Shown here: positions 3,900 to 10,805 of the stretch, piece after piece
Layout: the number at the start of each line of letters is the position of its first letter
Position numbering within the stretch: the first letter of the stretch is position 1
DNA from: Enteractinococcus coprophilus
GTDB lineage: Bacteria; Actinomycetota; Actinomycetes; Actinomycetales; Micrococcaceae
Length of the DNA stretch: 64,000 nt
Assembly: GCF_006716305.1 (NCBI RefSeq)
Contig: NZ_VFOU01000004.1
Coordinates: forward strand, 186,001-250,000
Direction of reading: 5' to 3'
Notes under the pieces: model-generated
Seen by the model: the letters and a program-made list of their open reading frames with translations, nothing else
Databases searched by the model: none
Told to the model about the DNA's origin: nothing
Made by a program: the position numbers and the translations under genes

Positions 3900-4130
3900 G
3901 TGGATCGACCCGAACCAAATGCCACCTGGGACGCCGGGGATATGGGCTGCGGTGAACTCATCGTCAAGCTCAAACTCAAGCTTCGTGATGAGCTTGCAGC
4001 CGGTGATATTTTGCAGCTCACCGCAACCGATCCCGGCGCCCCAGAGGACATCCCTGCCTGGTGTCGCCTCACCCGCAACCCGCTGATCTACCAAGATCAC
4101 CCGATATATTTCATTCAAACCAAGGAGTAG
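3900..4130 (+). CDS. TusA-like sulfur-carrier protein
   Basis: A 76-residue single-domain protein of the TusA/SirA fold. The usual CPxP active-site turn is replaced by DMGCGE (about residue 17). The family pattern then continues with a helix (LIVKLKLKLRDELAAG), a strand (DILQLTATDPGAPEDIPAW) and a second cysteine in WCRLTRN. TusA proteins carry sulfur as a persulfide on the first cysteine, so the retained cysteine suggests a carrier role. The GTG start has AGGAG at 3887-3891, 8 nt upstream. It is followed after 5 bp by a DsrE-like gene and then a second TusA-like domain fused to a methyltransferase core, so the three are likely one operon. Confidence 0.8.
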   Translation: MDRPEPNATWDAGDMGCGELIVKLKLKLRDELAAGDILQLTATDPGAPEDIPAWCRLTRNPLIYQDHPIYFIQTKE

Positions 4131-4135
4131 CCCTC

Positions 4136-4504
4136 ATGTCCGGTACCGGAAAATTCTGTGTCTCTATCACCCATGCCAAAAACGATACCGATAAAGCAAC
4201 TGTTGGCTTCGTGGTAGCCAACGCTGCTGCTGGTTCCGATCAAGACACCATGGTCTTCCTTTCCACCGAAGGGGTACGCCTGGCAGAAAAGGGCTACGCT
4301 GACGACATCCACGAAGAGGGTTTTGCTCCACTGGCCGAGCTGATCAGCAACTTCGTTGAAGCTGGCGGCCAGGTCTATGTGTGCGCCCCATGTATCAAGA
4401 AACGTGCCATCGCTCCAGACAATCTGATCGAGGGGGCAACCGTCGTCGGTGGGGCAAAACTCGTCGAATTCCTCGCCGACGGTACCCCAAGCGTCTCGTA
4501 CTAA
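4136..4504 (+). CDS. DsrE/DsrF-like sulfur-transfer family protein
   Basis: A 122-residue protein with a DsrE-like Rossmann layout: a first strand (FCVSITHAKND), a helix, a strand ending TMVFLSTEGVRL, and a conserved cysteine region VYVCAPCIKKRAI (about residue 82) with two cysteines in a CxxC arrangement. Members of this superfamily pass sulfane sulfur between carriers such as TusA and downstream enzymes. The ATG at 4136 is preceded by AAGGAG overlapping the stop of the upstream TusA-like gene, suggesting translational coupling. Its partner proteins are inferred from gene order only. Confidence 0.8.
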   Translation: MSGTGKFCVSITHAKNDTDKATVGFVVANAAAGSDQDTMVFLSTEGVRLAEKGYADDIHEEGFAPLAELISNFVEAGGQVYVCAPCIKKRAIAPDNLIEGATVVGGAKLVEFLADGTPSVSY

Positions 4505-4531
4505 ACCTTCTGTAGTGTGAAAGAGCCCGTT

Positions 4532-6139
4532 ATGTCCATGCCCACCGTGCACCCATACCCGCCAAAGACCAGTTTCAATGGTGGGGACCTTGATTGTGGC
4601 AATGGTCTGCTGCTGTTGATTCGTAAGCACATCGATCCGTTAGAACCCGGCGAGTTATTGGAAATTGTCTCGCATGATTCCACGGTCGAAGTAGATCTCC
4701 CGTCCTGGTGCCGGCTGACGAAAAACGAGCTGCTCAATATGCACACTGAGCCCGGAGTCTGGCGATTCTTGGTTAGCAAGGGACCTTTCACACCACCAGC
4801 AGACGCTGCCCTCCCGACGGTGACCGCACGCCCGGCAGCACACCCAGAGACACCGCTCGCTCCTTTGAAGCTGAAGAAAAAGCGGAAGAAACCGCAAATG
4901 GCGATCACGCAAGAAGTTGTGACGCCCCATATCCCAGACAGCCTGCCCGAGCCCGCCGATGCGCCGAACATCGAGCCGTTGTCCGTGCTGAGTTTGGGCA
5001 GTTGGCCGCGGCCACGCTGGATGTTGGAATCGTTACATCAGCATCTTGAAGGCCGTCTCGATGACGACGCGTTCCAAGCCGATGCCGATGACGCTGTACA
5101 ACTTGCTATCGCAGCCCAAGAACGCGCGGGCATTGATGTGGTGACCGACGGTGAACAACGCCGCGACAACTACTCATCATTCGTGGGCGGCATCCTGCAA
5201 AACTGCCAGCTCATTCCGGTCACCGATCTGCTGCCATATGTTGATGATCCTGACCAGTTCAACAAAGAACTACAAGCGCTGGATGTGCCAGCCGGCGAAG
5301 TCCGTCACCCAGCCGTTTTCGGTCCTCTGGGACGCAACGACCCGCTGACAGTCCATGAAGTGCAATATGCCCAATCTATTGCGACTAAACCGGTTAAAGT
5401 CAGCCTGCCCGGACCATATCTGCTAACCCGGACCATGTGGATGGAATGCGTTTCCGACCGCGCCTATGACAACCGCGAGCAACTCGCCGTCGATATCGTG
5501 CGCATCCTGCGCGAAGAAATTGCCTACCTGCTGGCCGAAGGCACCATCCTGGTACAGCTCGATGAACCCGTACTCACCGAGGTGCTCTATGGCGAACAGG
5601 GCCAAGGTGGTAGAACGTTTATGTGTGGTGCTCTCGGCGAGCGCGGTGCCCAGGATGAAGAACTGGCTTTTGCCCACCAGCTACTCGAGCAGGTCACGGA
5701 GGGCTTCCCCACCGACCGTCTGGCGCTGCATGTATGTCGTGGCAACTGGACCACCGATGAGACATCCGCTTTGACCGGTGGTTATGAACCACTGGTGCCA
5801 CTGTTCCGGTCAGTGAATGTCGGCACGCTTATTCTCGAGCTGTGTACCCCACGGGCGGGTGAGCTCGAAGCGCTAGCGGGCATCCGAGATGATCAGCGGA
5901 TCGGCGTCGGGGTCATCAACCAGAAAGACTCAGCTAACGATACGGTCGACGACGTCGCTGCCCGTGCTGAGCGGGCCATTAGGCTCTTTGGTTATGAGCG
6001 AGTGCTCCTCAATACCGATTGTGGCTTTGCGACCTTTGCCGATAACCCCATCCAATCGGCTCGTGCCGCCGAACGCGACCTTCGTTTGATCGCCCAGGCG
6101 CGAGACCAGCTGCGAACCAAATACCAGCACGGTGCCTGA
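4532..6139 (+). CDS. Fusion of a TusA-like domain with a MetE-type core methyltransferase domain
   Basis: A 535-residue two-domain protein. Residues 1-85 resemble the small TusA-like protein upstream (DLDCGNG near residue 20 and PSWCRLT near residue 59). A Pro/Lys-rich linker follows (about residues 90-150). The rest is a cobalamin-independent methionine-synthase barrel: GSWPRPRW, VVTDGEQRRDNY, QLDEPVLTEV, and the zinc set HVC (in ALHVCRGNW), the glutamate in ILELCTPRAG and the cysteine in NTDCGFATF. All four metal ligands known from MetE therefore appear present. The N-terminal folate-binding half of full MetE is absent, as in core methionine synthases. ATG 4532 is chosen (AAAGAG 7 nt upstream); a GTG at 4517 is possible. 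The methyl donor and acceptor are unknown. Confidence 0.85.
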   Translation: MSMPTVHPYPPKTSFNGGDLDCGNGLLLLIRKHIDPLEPGELLEIVSHDSTVEVDLPSWCRLTKNELLNMHTEPGVWRFLVSKGPFTPPADAALPTVTARPAAHPETPLAPLKLKKKRKKPQMAITQEVVTPHIPDSLPEPADAPNIEPLSVLSLGSWPRPRWMLESLHQHLEGRLDDDAFQADADDAVQLAIAAQERAGIDVVTDGEQRRDNYSSFVGGILQNCQLIPVTDLLPYVDDPDQFNKELQALDVPAGEVRHPAVFGPLGRNDPLTVHEVQYAQSIATKPVKVSLPGPYLLTRTMWMECVSDRAYDNREQLAVDIVRILREEIAYLLAEGTILVQLDEPVLTEVLYGEQGQGGRTFMCGALGERGAQDEELAFAHQLLEQVTEGFPTDRLALHVCRGNWTTDETSALTGGYEPLVPLFRSVNVGTLILELCTPRAGELEALAGIRDDQRIGVGVINQKDSANDTVDDVAARAERAIRLFGYERVLLNTDCGFATFADNPIQSARAAERDLRLIAQARDQLRTKYQHGA

Positions 6140-7591: not shown

Positions 7592-8626
7592 ATGTCAGCT
7601 GAACAACATTTACAACGTTTGGGATTTCTGACGATCGGATTATTTGATCCACAAGATCCCGCTGCAGGACATGAGTCCACCCTAGAAATCATTGAACTTG
7701 GTGAACGATTAGGTTTCGACAGTGCTTGGCTGCGTCATCGGCACCTGCAATTTGGCATCTCCTCGCCCATCGCAGTGATGGCAGCAGCATCACAGCGGAC
7801 CACGCGCATTGAACTAGGTACCGCCGTCACGCCGATGGGATGGGAAAACCCACTGCGACTAGCCGAAGACTTCGCGACCGTCGATATCTTATCGAACGGT
7901 CGGATCAACCCCGGGCTCAGCGTCGGTACGCCAATGGACTATGACACCATCCAACACGTGCTGTACCCCAACACAGCTGAGCTCGAAGATTTCAGCAAAG
8001 CACGCGTTGACCTGTTCAACCGACTCATTGCTGGTGAACCCGTTCGGGAACTTTCCGGCAAACGCGGGGTAGTGGAAGAATTCTCAAACCGTATTGAACC
8101 CCACTCCCCCGGGCTACGAGAGCGTCTATGGTACGGAGCAGGGAGCATGGACTCAGCTATGTGGGCCGGCGAACACGGCATGAATTTGCTCACCAGTAGC
8201 GTGATCTTTCCTCAAGAAGATGACACGCCAGACTTCGCCGAAGTACAAGCCCAACAGATTCAGGCATTTCGAGCAGCCACTGCCAAGCACACCCCAAGCG
8301 CACCGGCCCGGGTATCGCAGGGATTAGTCGTGATTCCAACCGACTCCGCTACGACAGCGCAAAAGGCAAAGTACCAGGCTTATGTGGATGAGCGCACGCC
8401 GCGCACCGAAAAACCCCAGGGTCCGCGCAACATGCTCTTTGCCAAGGACCTCATCGGTACTAGTGAAGAAATTGCAGAACAGCTGCACGCTCATGCCGGG
8501 TATCAACAGGTCACCGAGGTGGCATTCGCGTTGCCGTTTAGTTTCGACCACGAAGACTACGTGCAGATTCTGACCGACATCGCCCATCGTCTCGGACCTC
8601 TATTGGGTTGGCATCCTTCCGTATAA
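7592..8626 (+). CDS. LLM-class (luciferase-like) flavin-dependent oxidoreductase
   Basis: A 344-residue luciferase-like monooxygenase. Motifs include the start of the barrel (LGFLTIGLFDP), ERLGFDSAWLRHRHL, TRIELGTAVTPMGWENPLRLAEDFATVDILSNGRINPGLSVGTP, and a C-terminal GTSEEIAEQL. This family uses reduced FMN or F420 to oxidise small organic substrates; which one cannot be read from the sequence. The GLSVG segment and the general layout resemble the FMN-using subgroup common in actinobacteria. GAAGGTGTC precedes the ATG as a weak ribosome site. It is monocistronic, between two intergenic gaps. Confidence 0.8.
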   Translation: MSAEQHLQRLGFLTIGLFDPQDPAAGHESTLEIIELGERLGFDSAWLRHRHLQFGISSPIAVMAAASQRTTRIELGTAVTPMGWENPLRLAEDFATVDILSNGRINPGLSVGTPMDYDTIQHVLYPNTAELEDFSKARVDLFNRLIAGEPVRELSGKRGVVEEFSNRIEPHSPGLRERLWYGAGSMDSAMWAGEHGMNLLTSSVIFPQEDDTPDFAEVQAQQIQAFRAATAKHTPSAPARVSQGLVVIPTDSATTAQKAKYQAYVDERTPRTEKPQGPRNMLFAKDLIGTSEEIAEQLHAHAGYQQVTEVAFALPFSFDHEDYVQILTDIAHRLGPLLGWHPSV

Positions 8627-8686
8627 AGCGGCCCGTTTCCCCTGCGACCTGGGACACCCCCGAGCAGGCAGCGTATTCTGGGTGCT

Positions 8687-9394
8687 ATGGAAATTGAGTG
8701 GATCTCAGATACGCTTACCACCCAAGCGATCCTCTTGGTGTGCTCATTTGTCCTGTCGGGAATCATCGGGCTCGAACGCGAACTGCGACAAAAATCCGCC
8801 GGAGCAAGGACCCACATTCTGGTAGGCATGGGCTCCGCGCTCTTCACCCTCGTCTCGGCATATGGCTTCGCGCAGGTGGTGGGCGAGAGCGTTGTCTTGG
8901 ACCCTTCCCGGATTGCCGCCCAGATCGTGACCGGAATCGGTTTTCTTGGGGCAGGGGTCATTTTCGTTCGCCGCAACATCGTCTCGGGTCTCACCACGGC
9001 TGCATCGGTGTGGGTCACGGCAGCAGTCGGGATGGCCTGTGGTGCGGGCATGCCTGTTATCGCCGCACTCACCGTTGCGTTATATCTCTTTGCGGTCACT
9101 GCCCTGACCGCATTGATTCGTCGCTTGCCAACACAGCGCCGCACCGAGCTGTACCAGGTGCGTTACCAGGATGGCCACGGAGTGTTGCGCGACATTTTGC
9201 AGGTCGCCTCAGATGCTGGATACGATATGGCGCTATCGGAAACCCACCGTGAACGAGGAGACACGGGACCTACCGTCCTGGCTCGCATCGAGTTCACTCA
9301 CGGCAAGCAACGTCCGCCGGAATCGCTGTTTCGTAAGATCAGTGAGGTCTCGGGCGTCTTGGAAATCAAAAGCGAAGACCAAGATCATGACTAA
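8687..9394 (+). CDS. MgtC/SapB family membrane protein
   Basis: A 235-residue protein with four to five N-terminal membrane helices and a soluble C-terminal domain. The family signature is clear: SGIIGLERELRQKSAGARTH, VGMGSALFTLVS, and then IVTGIGFLGAGVIF with VSGLTTAASVWVTAAVGMACG. The C-terminal 85 residues look like an ACT-like regulatory domain. MgtC-type proteins are linked to growth at low magnesium and to modulation of ATP synthase in pathogens; in this organism the role is unknown. It is a single gene, ended by the hairpin at 9413-9453. Confidence 0.88.
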   Translation: MEIEWISDTLTTQAILLVCSFVLSGIIGLERELRQKSAGARTHILVGMGSALFTLVSAYGFAQVVGESVVLDPSRIAAQIVTGIGFLGAGVIFVRRNIVSGLTTAASVWVTAAVGMACGAGMPVIAALTVALYLFAVTALTALIRRLPTQRRTELYQVRYQDGHGVLRDILQVASDAGYDMALSETHRERGDTGPTVLARIEFTHGKQRPPESLFRKISEVSGVLEIKSEDQDHD

Positions 9395-9412
9395 GGCGTA
9401 GCGGGCACAAAA

Positions 9413-9453
9413 AACCGCGTGTACCCGACCTGATCGGTCGAATACCCGCGGTT
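9413..9453. terminator. Bidirectional terminator hairpin
   Basis: Outer arms AACCGCG (9413-9419) and CGCGGTT (9447-9453), with an inner CGACC/GGTCG stem, lie between two convergent genes. A run of A before the left arm gives a U-tract for minus-strand transcription. Confidence 0.65.
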
Positions 9454-9463
9454 GAAAAACTGG

Positions 9464-10027
9464 CTAGACCGTTACGTTCACGCGATGCTTGGCGACCAGC
9501 TCTTCAAGCTGATCTAACATGGCGTGCATTTCGGCTGGGTGACGTTCTGCAGGTGAGAAGTCGCCGTCTTCCCAATCGAAAAACAAGTTGAAGTTCAATT
9601 CGGCACGAACCACTGGCATCGAGAAGTTCGCAACAATTTGGCGCCACTGCTCAATAGCACGGACACCACCAACAGCACCATGACCGATGAACGCAACCGG
9701 TTTACCAACCCATTCCGGGCCAAGAACATCAACGGCGTTTTTGAAGCCACCGGGCACGCCGTGGTTGTATTCCGGAGTGACAAAGATGAAGGCATCGAGC
9801 GAATCGATCTTGTCCGACCACTTCTGAACGTTTGGATCTTCATGGTTTTTATTGGCAACCATCGGGTGGACGTCGCTGGTCAGCAATGGTACGTTGTACT
9901 CGGTCAGATCAACATATTCGTATTCGAAGTCGCCGTCGCGCTGCGTTGCGATTTCGTGGGCGTATTTGGCCACTGGTTCAGTATTACGTGTTCCACGGAT
10001 CGAACCGTTGATGATACCGATCTTCAT
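9464..10027 (-). CDS. NADPH-dependent FMN reductase family protein
   Basis: A 187-residue flavodoxin-fold reductase. It has the phosphate-binding loop GIINGSIRGTRNTEPVA at the N-terminus, the FMN-contacting FVTPEYNHGVPGGFKNAVD (about residues 80-100) and GHGAVGGVRAIEQWR. Such enzymes reduce FMN or quinone-like substrates with NAD(P)H and often protect against electrophiles. GAAGGAGC precedes the ATG at good spacing. The next gene upstream is divergent, so it is monocistronic. Whether it supplies reduced FMN to the nearby LLM oxidoreductase is speculation. Confidence 0.88.
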   Translation of the reverse strand: MKIGIINGSIRGTRNTEPVAKYAHEIATQRDGDFEYEYVDLTEYNVPLLTSDVHPMVANKNHEDPNVQKWSDKIDSLDAFIFVTPEYNHGVPGGFKNAVDVLGPEWVGKPVAFIGHGAVGGVRAIEQWRQIVANFSMPVVRAELNFNLFFDWEDGDFSPAERHPAEMHAMLDQLEELVAKHRVNVTV

Positions 10028-10217
10028 AGACGGGTTGCTCCTTCGGTGTCGGAAGTTCTCCCGGCCAATATTCAGGGGTGGCTGACAGCCGGGCGCTGCT
10101 GTTCCATTTCATCCTATTCGCGCCGAAAAAGTAAACCTAATTCAAATTTGTAACTATCGGCTGAATGGCCATGTTGAATCTACGTCATTACCGCGACCAT
10201 GGTCTCAGCTTGGCTAT

Positions 10218-10223
10218 TACAAT
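10218..10223 (+). promoter_or_regulatory. -10 element (TACAAT) for a leaderless transcript
   Basis: TACAAT ends 6 nt before the ATG at 10230 and no Shine-Dalgarno precedes that start, so transcription and translation probably begin at the same base. No good -35 box is visible. Confidence 0.5.
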
Positions 10224-10229
10224 GAACTC

Positions 10230-10805
10230 ATGACTGACCACCGTGATGCCCTGTTACTCGTCGATCTCCAAAATGCATTCTTTGATGAAGAAGGCCTAGC
10301 AGAACAAGAAGCTGAACTCACTGCCGCAGCGAATAGGCTGTCGGAAGCGGCTATCGAGGCAGACATACCCGTGTTTGTCGTGACGACGGTTCACAGTCGC
10401 GACACTTCGACCTGGACCCTGAACATGCTTGAAGCCGGTGAGGGCTTCCTCTTTTCCGGTGAAGAAGGAACCGAGGTCATTGACGGCTTAAATACCGATA
10501 AGACCACCAGGATCGAAAAGACTCGCGATAGCGCATTCTTTGCCACCGACCTGCATCTGCGCCTTGTCAATCTCTCGGTCAACCGGATCGTCCTAGCTGG
10601 AGTATCCACCCACGGCTGTATCAGCCAAACCGCTCGTGATGCATATGCGCACAACATGCGTTCGGTGTTGATCAGTGATGCGACCGCCGATGCTCGTCAG
10701 GATTATCACGAAGCCCAACTCCAACGACTTGAAGAAGATGGTCAGGCTTCAACTGCAACCATGGACGAAATGATCGCTACCTGGCAGAACACTGCTGACA
10801 ACTAG
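10230..10805 (+). CDS. Isochorismatase-like cysteine hydrolase
   Basis: A 191-residue single-domain hydrolase. The expected catalytic triad can be placed: Asp in LLLVDLQNAFF (about residue 11), Lys in RIEKTRDSAFF and Cys in GVSTHGCISQTARDAY. The cis-peptide region before the cysteine is also as expected. Family members hydrolyse amides or isochorismate; the substrate here is unknown (nicotinamide and peroxyureidoacrylate enzymes are relatives). It is a single gene, probably translated from a leaderless message, and ends at a strong hairpin. Confidence 0.85.
   Translation: MTDHRDALLLVDLQNAFFDEEGLAEQEAELTAAANRLSEAAIEADIPVFVVTTVHSRDTSTWTLNMLEAGEGFLFSGEEGTEVIDGLNTDKTTRIEKTRDSAFFATDLHLRLVNLSVNRIVLAGVSTHGCISQTARDAYAHNMRSVLISDATADARQDYHEAQLQRLEEDGQASTATMDEMIATWQNTADN

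Follow-up and report, generated by a model that had tools for sequence, protein, structure and literature searches.

What is a zinc methionine-synthase core doing when a TusA-like carrier domain is joined to its N-terminus and a second TusA-like gene and a DsrE-like gene stand before it? This question is raised by a tight plus-strand cluster of three adjoining genes at positions 3900-6139 of a 64,000-nucleotide stretch of the 2.88-Mb Enteractinococcus coprophilus genome (G000; GCF_006716305.1, contig NZ_VFOU01000004.1), which is referred to here as the window (C4:186001-250000) and whose genus stands in our comparisons as Yaniella, with nine genomes. We report that the TusA::core-MetE fusion is a conserved family of wide but patchy taxonomic distribution and that the three-gene module probably serves selenium metabolism.

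The fusion family

The genes and reading frames of the cluster agree with a first-pass annotation of the window, which had described two TusA-like domains, a DsrE-like protein and a zinc core, and all three proteins score above the Pfam gathering thresholds (28.6 bits for TusA; Table 1). In the fusion a linker connects a TusA-like domain with a core-MetE barrel, and residues are numbered from the ATG at 4532, which is taken as the start, the frame being open also from a GTG at 4517. The folate-binding half of MetE is replaced by the carrier domain, as had been claimed: Meth_synt_1 scores 13.5 bits in the fusion against a cut-off of 27, and does so inside the core, and the N-terminus matches Pfam TusA. 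This domain shows the order beta-alpha-beta-alpha-beta-beta in an AlphaFold model built from 60 sequences (pLDDT 85.9, pTM 0.76), in which its pLDDT is 92-96 in most ten-residue blocks and 81 in the block of Cys22. Where classical TusA has CPxP, the carrier loops are CGEL in the separate protein, TusA1, and CGNG in the fusion. Replacement of CPxP by DxGCG in both domains had been suggested; the prolines are indeed lost and the carrier cysteine kept, but the loops read DMGCGEL in TusA1 and DLDCGNG in the fusion. The second cysteine, in WCRLT, is found in both.

With 30.7 and 37.2 bits, both TusA-like proteins stay below the 78-bit cut-off of the NCBIfam equivalog for TusA. No NCBIfam family matches the fusion at its cut-off, the best methionine-synthase match being 145.9 of 406 bits, and the curated MetE scores are far above those of the fusion (78.9 of 541 bits for PRK05222; 70.5 of 929.95 for TIGR01371). 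As no Pfam or NCBIfam entry was found for the TusA::core-MetE architecture, and no paper describing the fusion or tying core-MetE to selenium was found among the titles, abstract openings and passages of a mainly non-subscription literature, the fusion does not appear to belong to a well-described family, in line with the first-pass annotation.

A scan of reference genomes with patterns in the core confirmed at least 504 relatives, and the best 80 of these were kept as loci. In all of these 80 the tblastn match covers both the TusA domain and the core, and 73 have an uninterrupted gene call of more than 470 aa (the others are L078, L079, L090, L098, L112, L131 and L135). The 80 best loci belong to Yaniella, Corynebacterium, Helcobacillus, Acidimicrobiales, Planctomycetota, Binatota, Chloroflexi/Dehalococcoidia, Burkholderiales, Nitrospirillum, Anaeromyxobacter, Verrucomicrobiales, Obscuribacterales and others. 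The fusion is also carried by three Paracoccus plasmids, two of which were examined as loci, so that 82 loci were inspected. Nearer to the window, it is found in six of the nine Yaniella genomes at 81-100% identity (81-90% in the five other than the window's own); among the matches listed, these six are its only carriers in a sample of 197 genomes of the family, and the window's own genome gives the only two-domain match in 396 genomes across the phylum. Its recurrence in five other Yaniella genomes, and matches across both domains in every one of the 80 reference loci, show that the fusion is genuine and not a sequencing artefact.

The gene set is conserved as well. A DsrE gene is present in 78 of the 82 loci and a separate TusA gene in 74; DsrE lies upstream of the fusion at less than 150 bp in 53 loci, at 150-600 bp in 4 and at 0.6-4 kb in 21. 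The four loci in which DsrE is absent are L115 and L120, near a contig end, and L106 and L130, with longer flanks, and four Binatia loci have DsrE and no second TusA gene. Several beta-proteobacterial loci also have, directly 3' of the fusion, another DsrE-like gene, whose product is divergent (Pfam DsrE 31.7 bits in L099:11517-11873).

In an alignment of 76 fusions (75 loci and the window), the zinc ligands H400, C402, E436 and C497 are invariant, which bears out the earlier statement that all four metal ligands are kept. The homocysteine residues S157, E208 and D344, aligned to the structure 3RPD, are likewise found in every row and match Ser433, Glu484 and Asp599 of Escherichia coli MetE in the residue list of PMC7857596. 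Cys22 and Cys60 of the fusion are 99% and 97% conserved, and the core cysteines C225, C306 and C365 are also invariant, with a possible role beside the carrier; C365 is kept in a TusA-less relative (A1), C225 and C306 are not. In alignments that take in the window and mutually overlapping Yaniella loci, Cys17 and Cys55 of TusA1 are found in 79 and 78 of 80 rows, respectively, and Cys83 and Cys86 of DsrE are both found in 84 of 84.

The best solved match of the fusion is 3RPD, a B12-independent core methionine synthase holding selenomethionine (E value 5.6e-21, 22% identity), which a passage of PMC7857596 calls a MesD protein. In a maximum-likelihood tree of 75 cores, built without MesA, MesB and MesC and with long-branch warnings among its non-fusion rows, 19 representative fusions form one clade (100/99) apart from canonical MetE, one annotated MesD (L178) and the other core-MetE relatives. 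The nearest outsider is a TusA-less protein of the genome G227 (94/83 support; 43-44% identity to the window fusion). This TusA-less relative (44% identity) lies beside acyl-CoA-dehydrogenase-like, PhnD-like and OsmC-like proteins (L068:13182-17049), and homologues of the first two (50% and 46% identity) are found 3' of the module in the Gemmataceae genome of L109, where they match the NCBIfam Rv1679/Rv1680 families below cut-off.

Table 1. Positions of the module and of other features discussed; positions without a locus label are those of the window.
Feature	Position	Strand	Remarks
TusA1, TusA-like carrier protein	3900..4130	+	76 aa, GTG start; Pfam TusA 36.1 bits; carrier Cys17 in DMGCGEL, second Cys55 in WCRLT
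DsrE-like relay protein	4136..4504	+	122 aa; Pfam DsrE 62.5 bits; motif VCAPCIKKR with Cys83 and Cys86
TusA::core-MetE fusion	4532..6139	+	535 aa; Pfam TusA 36.3 and Meth_synt_2 82.6 bits
Fusion, TusA-like domain (residues 13-84)	4568..4783	+	Pfam TusA; carrier Cys22 (codon 4595-4597) and Cys60
Fusion, core-MetE barrel (residues 150-530)	4979..6121	+	Meth_synt_2; without the folate-binding half
Zinc ligands H400 and C402 (HVC)	5729..5737	+	invariant in 76 aligned rows
Zinc ligand E436	5837..5839	+	invariant in 76 aligned rows
Zinc ligand C497 (NTDCG)	6020..6022	+	invariant in 76 aligned rows
Gene pair between DsrE and fusion	L145:7911-9978; L149:9865-11949		eight to ten loci
TGA within formate dehydrogenase of the window genome	L167 4463-4465		apparent selenocysteine codon

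Association with selenium genes

In Paracoccus ferrooxidans the gene order is cysteine desulfurase, TusA, DsrE, two genes of no assigned kind, fusion, selA and trxB, with selB nearby, and it was the presence of selA and selB near the fusion that led us to search for SelD (called as TIGR00476 above cut-off). SelD was found in all 35 fusion-bearing whole genomes of a first set, the Paracoccus plasmid record alone having none over the cut-off, and in 42 of 46 further distinct fusion-bearing genomes, two of them by partial matches (G658 and G660), which makes 77 of 81 distinct carriers. The second set held 49 genomes: the 46 new ones, G227, which has no fusion, and two already counted (G617, and G620, whose SelD place is that of G519); L113 is outside the count. 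In the fusion-bearing genomes whose titles mark neither a metagenome-assembled genome (MAG) nor an uncultured organism, SelD is found in 20 of 20, and the SelD-positive carriers span Actinobacteria, Planctomycetota, Binatota, Proteobacteria, Myxobacteria, Chloroflexi, a Verrucomicrobiales MAG and others. The first-pass annotation had proposed that carrier-bound sulfur feeds an alkyl-transfer site. The idea of a carrier serving the zinc site fits the residues and the gene set, but the element is probably selenium rather than sulfur, given SelD in 77 of the 81 fusion-bearing genomes.

These numbers can be set against the background. Passages of two comparative studies put the selenium trait in fewer than 40% of sequenced organisms (PMC5322559) and selenocysteine synthesis in 21.5% of bacteria (PMC10418091); our searches found SelD in 54 of the 197 Micrococcaceae genomes, the family to which the window belongs, and in 2 of 14 control genomes. 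All six carriers in the family sample are SelD-positive (hypergeometric probability 3.4e-4, not corrected for kinship), and within Yaniella alone the six carriers are among seven SelD-positive genomes of nine, with a chance value of 0.08. SelD is present in all five fusion-bearing Corynebacterium genomes and absent from the control C. glutamicum. It was not found in G227, the one genome checked that has the TusA-less core.

One could argue that the link with SelD reflects the choice of taxa, the 80 closest loci being rich in Burkholderiales, and that the function of the module is unrelated to it. The loci are indeed only the best of a larger number of relatives, the association is not corrected for kinship and the base rates of SelD were measured for few lineages. 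However, the association is also seen where only a minority of genomes have SelD, as in the Micrococcaceae, and across many phyla, and the C. glutamicum control differs in the same sense from the fusion-bearing corynebacteria. We therefore consider a pure sampling effect very improbable.

Other selenium genes adjoin the module in some loci. In two Paracoccus plasmids selA lies directly 3' of the fusion, and in one of them, whose locus extends far enough, selB is upstream; selB is also found upstream of the module in three Chloroflexi loci. The window genome has selD, selA and selB together with a formate dehydrogenase whose two ORFs are separated by TGA (L167:3899-13620; named by eye), and selA and selB adjoin selD also in Yaniella G487, Helcobacillus, C. 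riegelii and a Bordetella genomosp. In G108, a TusA match that includes a TGA proved to be an ordinary CPLP TusA, with the TGA as its end.

A possible reaction and its alternatives

We tentatively propose that the three genes form a selenium-salvage module that frees selenium from methylated forms, a reading that we regard as plausible and slightly short of probable. The specific reaction, in which a carrier-bound methylselenide is demethylated by zinc-bound homocysteine to give methionine and a carrier-bound perselenide for selenophosphate, is conceivable and, on balance, doubtful. Methylated selenium would be imported or would arise inside the cell, for example as methylselenol from selenide and S-adenosylmethionine, and the fused TusA domain would hold the methylselenide on its carrier cysteine in the form of a selenenyl sulfide (Cys-S-Se-CH3), this domain standing where MetE has the half that brings the methyl donor. 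The core-MetE barrel would bind homocysteine as a zinc thiolate, to which the methyl group would pass, the perselenide that stays on the carrier being a good leaving group; the products would be methionine and carrier-bound selenium (Cys-S-Se-), and the DsrE-like and free TusA-like proteins would hand the selenium on towards SelD for selenophosphate synthesis. We infer the chemical steps, the substrate and the direction of transfer; the gene set, its conservation, the residues, the clade and the link with SelD and with selA/selB are observed. This is the simplest reaction in which the pocket for homocysteine and zinc, the carrier domain, the relay genes and SelD all have a part. The invariant zinc and homocysteine residues speak for it, as does the selenomethionine in the nearest solved structure. 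A thioether or homocysteine-like product had been suggested earlier, and homocysteine or methionine is a likely partner, since the homocysteine pocket is kept; an unspecified thioether is less so. According to passages of the literature, selenolates leave better than thiolates (pKa 5.43 vs. 8.22; PMC5187540) and methylselenol can arise by itself from selenide and S-adenosylmethionine (PMC3511371), so that an enzyme recycling it would pay; an argument of this kind has been made for corrinoid clusters of anaerobes (PMC10418091).

In some lineages a PhnD/E/C-like ABC transporter lies between or beside DsrE and the fusion. Of 84 gene-called loci, 16 have a member of a PhnE-like permease cluster and 15 a member of a PhnD-like one; most of these loci are beta-proteobacterial, and the genes usually lie between DsrE and the fusion. 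At least one member of the PhnD-like cluster is of another kind (in L109, 3' of the fusion, with no transporter genes seen adjoining). In favour of selenium, the binding protein of the Duganella transporter shows a distant likeness to TIGR04553, 'putative selenate ABC transporter' (77.2 bits against a cut-off of 250). Ten loci other than those with the transporter encode a protein of 510-525 aa, preceded in eight by a small membrane-type protein; the pair of L145 (171 and 511 aa) has no Pfam or NCBIfam match. The transporter-type genes adjoining the module suggest that it acts on something imported.

Several observations weigh against selenium salvage. SelD was not found in 4 of the 81 carriers, all of them MAGs (G630, G646, G651 and G654; loci L094, L116, L127 and L131), G630 being the only Acidobacteria genome among those searched for SelD. 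Genes of the sel type near the module are rare (5 of 82 loci), and Yaniella G487 has selD, selA, selB and formate dehydrogenase without the module, which is therefore not needed for selenocysteine. The binding protein of the Duganella transporter is nearer to PhnD (147.9 of 261.1 bits, under the cut-off) than to the selenate model, and the broad subfamily TIGR01098 is the only one whose cut-off it passes. MetX- and MetY-like genes (named by eye) adjoin the module in four Binatia loci, pointing to methionine. Finally, the reaction of thiolates with selenenyl sulfides in free solution takes place at selenium or sulfur and not at carbon, and the enzyme would have to enforce methyl transfer.

These Binatia neighbours, like the invariant zinc and homocysteine residues, would also suit a fifth family of folate-independent methionine synthase, whose methyl donor is brought or gated by the TusA domain and in which selenium is incidental. 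By profile search, the fusion is the sole Meth_synt_2 gene of the window genome, which has no PF02574 (MetH/BHMT-type) gene and in which two weak MTHFR-like matches (41.7 and 25.6 bits; Pfam cut-off 24) make methylene-folate reduction possible. A MetX-type gene stands beside a PF01053 gene in this and all other Yaniella genomes (nine of nine), the MetX matches being under the model cut-off, as they are in all control genomes. Corynebacterium sp. NML130628 (G593) similarly has no PF02574 gene and no MTHFR match, its best Meth_synt_2 match being 6.3e-9. However, the Yaniella genomes G415, G487 and G549 (the last 71% complete) are without the fusion, and neither MetE nor PF02574 was found in them, so that the gap in the genus is left unfilled. 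Moreover, PF02574 genes are present in all 22 genomes tested outside Actinobacteria (the Paracoccus plasmid record excepted), as compared with 1 of 16 actinobacterial genomes, and several genomes also have a full-length MetE match. The fusion was accordingly rejected as a general filler of a methionine-synthase gap: the module is an addition to methionine synthesis, not a general replacement of it. As a fifth methionine synthase the fusion would also leave SelD in 77 of 81 carriers without explanation, and we think this reading improbable. Independently of the function of the module, all nine Yaniella genomes (G000, G443, G467, G504, G519, G534, G415, G487 and G549) combine MetX-type and PF01053 genes with no canonical MetE or PF02574 gene found, and these organisms may be methionine auxotrophs or have another route to methionine, e.g., from methanethiol.

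The association with SelD also suits a module that delivers or stores selenium and does not demethylate it, with selenium or thiol species held or sensed by the zinc site and the homocysteine pocket and with the carriers buffering selenide, handing it to SelD or protecting against it. A DsrE/TusA pair is known to pass on a sulfur group, as a passage of PMC4175335 describes, and YedF, a TusA-DsrE protein, is already linked to SelD in a passage of PMC5322559. However, every residue that binds zinc or the amino acid is invariant, which argues for catalysis, and delivery or storage alone seems unlikely to us.

Because TusA and DsrE are sulfur carriers, a sulfur version of the salvage reaction can also be drawn, in which methanethiol or another methylated sulfur compound is split, the methyl group passing to homocysteine and the sulfane sulfur to the carriers. 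Flavin oxygenase-type neighbours in single loci, alkanesulfonate-monooxygenase-like in L143 and FadE16/SfnB-like in L109, all under cut-off, are in keeping with it, as are the neighbours of the TusA-less relative in G227, a genome without SelD; this relative may be a sulfur counterpart. However, the TusA-fused form tracks SelD and the oxygenase types of L109 and L143 occur in no other locus searched, so that for the fusion itself the sulfur version is decidedly improbable.

Neighbouring genes, known systems and implications

The MgtC-like, FMN-reductase-like and 191-aa (10230-10805) genes are found 3' of the module in all five other Yaniella loci, and none of their clusters occurs in loci outside the genus; for this reason they are left out of the system, and a role within Yaniella is possible. 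An aldehyde dehydrogenase/GMC pair, an Ldh_2 gene and a luciferase-like oxygenase are found in some only of these five loci, the luciferase-like monooxygenase beside the window module (7592-10805 region) in one. No Rfam match lies within the window, and six related loci give only one tRNA.

Among known proteins, the fusion resembles MesA-D and core-MetE proteins, being a zinc barrel without the folate half, with the same zinc ligands and homocysteine residues and with 3RPD as nearest fold. It differs from MesD in being 22% identical to 3RPD, in falling in another clade than the annotated MesD of L178 and in carrying a TusA domain. MesX (DUF1852), the partner of MesD, had no match in the six neighbours scanned, no whole-genome search for DUF1852 having been made. 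Compared with MetE, the fusion has the C-terminal His-Cys-Glu-Cys zinc barrel and no N-terminal folate barrel, and it misses the curated scores. With YedF it shares the two types of carrier domain and the association with SelD (PMC5322559, in the passage cited above), but YedF joins TusA to DsrE, with CPxP and CGxC, whereas in the window TusA is joined to core-MetE, with CGEL and CGNG loops, and DsrE is a separate gene with CAPC.

The corrinoid type I mlp clusters of anaerobes, in passages of PMC10418091, are proposed to recycle methyl selenide in selenium users; type I MGCs are found mostly in selenocysteine-making organisms, and Mlps and MetE both belong to the UroD superfamily (PMC10418091). 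Mlps are relatives of coenzyme M methyltransferases with corrinoid proteins, however, whereas here a core-MetE barrel is combined with a TusA carrier. In DsrE3A and TusA of Metallosphaera a sulfur group is likewise passed between DsrE and TusA cysteines, but passages of PMC4175335 describe thiosulfate transfer in sulfur oxidation, with no methyltransferase. A comparative genomics study of selenium genes (PMC5322559) does not use the word 'methionine' in its main text, and a passage of PMC5187540 states that no enzymatic pathway from methylselenol to selenide had been identified as of 2016.

At least one copy of the fusion is annotated as '5-methyltetrahydropteroyltriglutamate-homocysteine methyltransferase', a label that is probably misleading for annotators. 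The three-gene set, found in many phyla, couples a chalcogen carrier with a site of methyl transfer to homocysteine, and it goes together with SelD. If the proposed salvage reaction is true, the module would do without cobalamin what is proposed for the corrinoid route, and it would be a candidate for the step from methylselenol to selenide. As the delivery of selenium to SelD is poorly known too, the module offers a defined, expressible candidate for both selenium questions.

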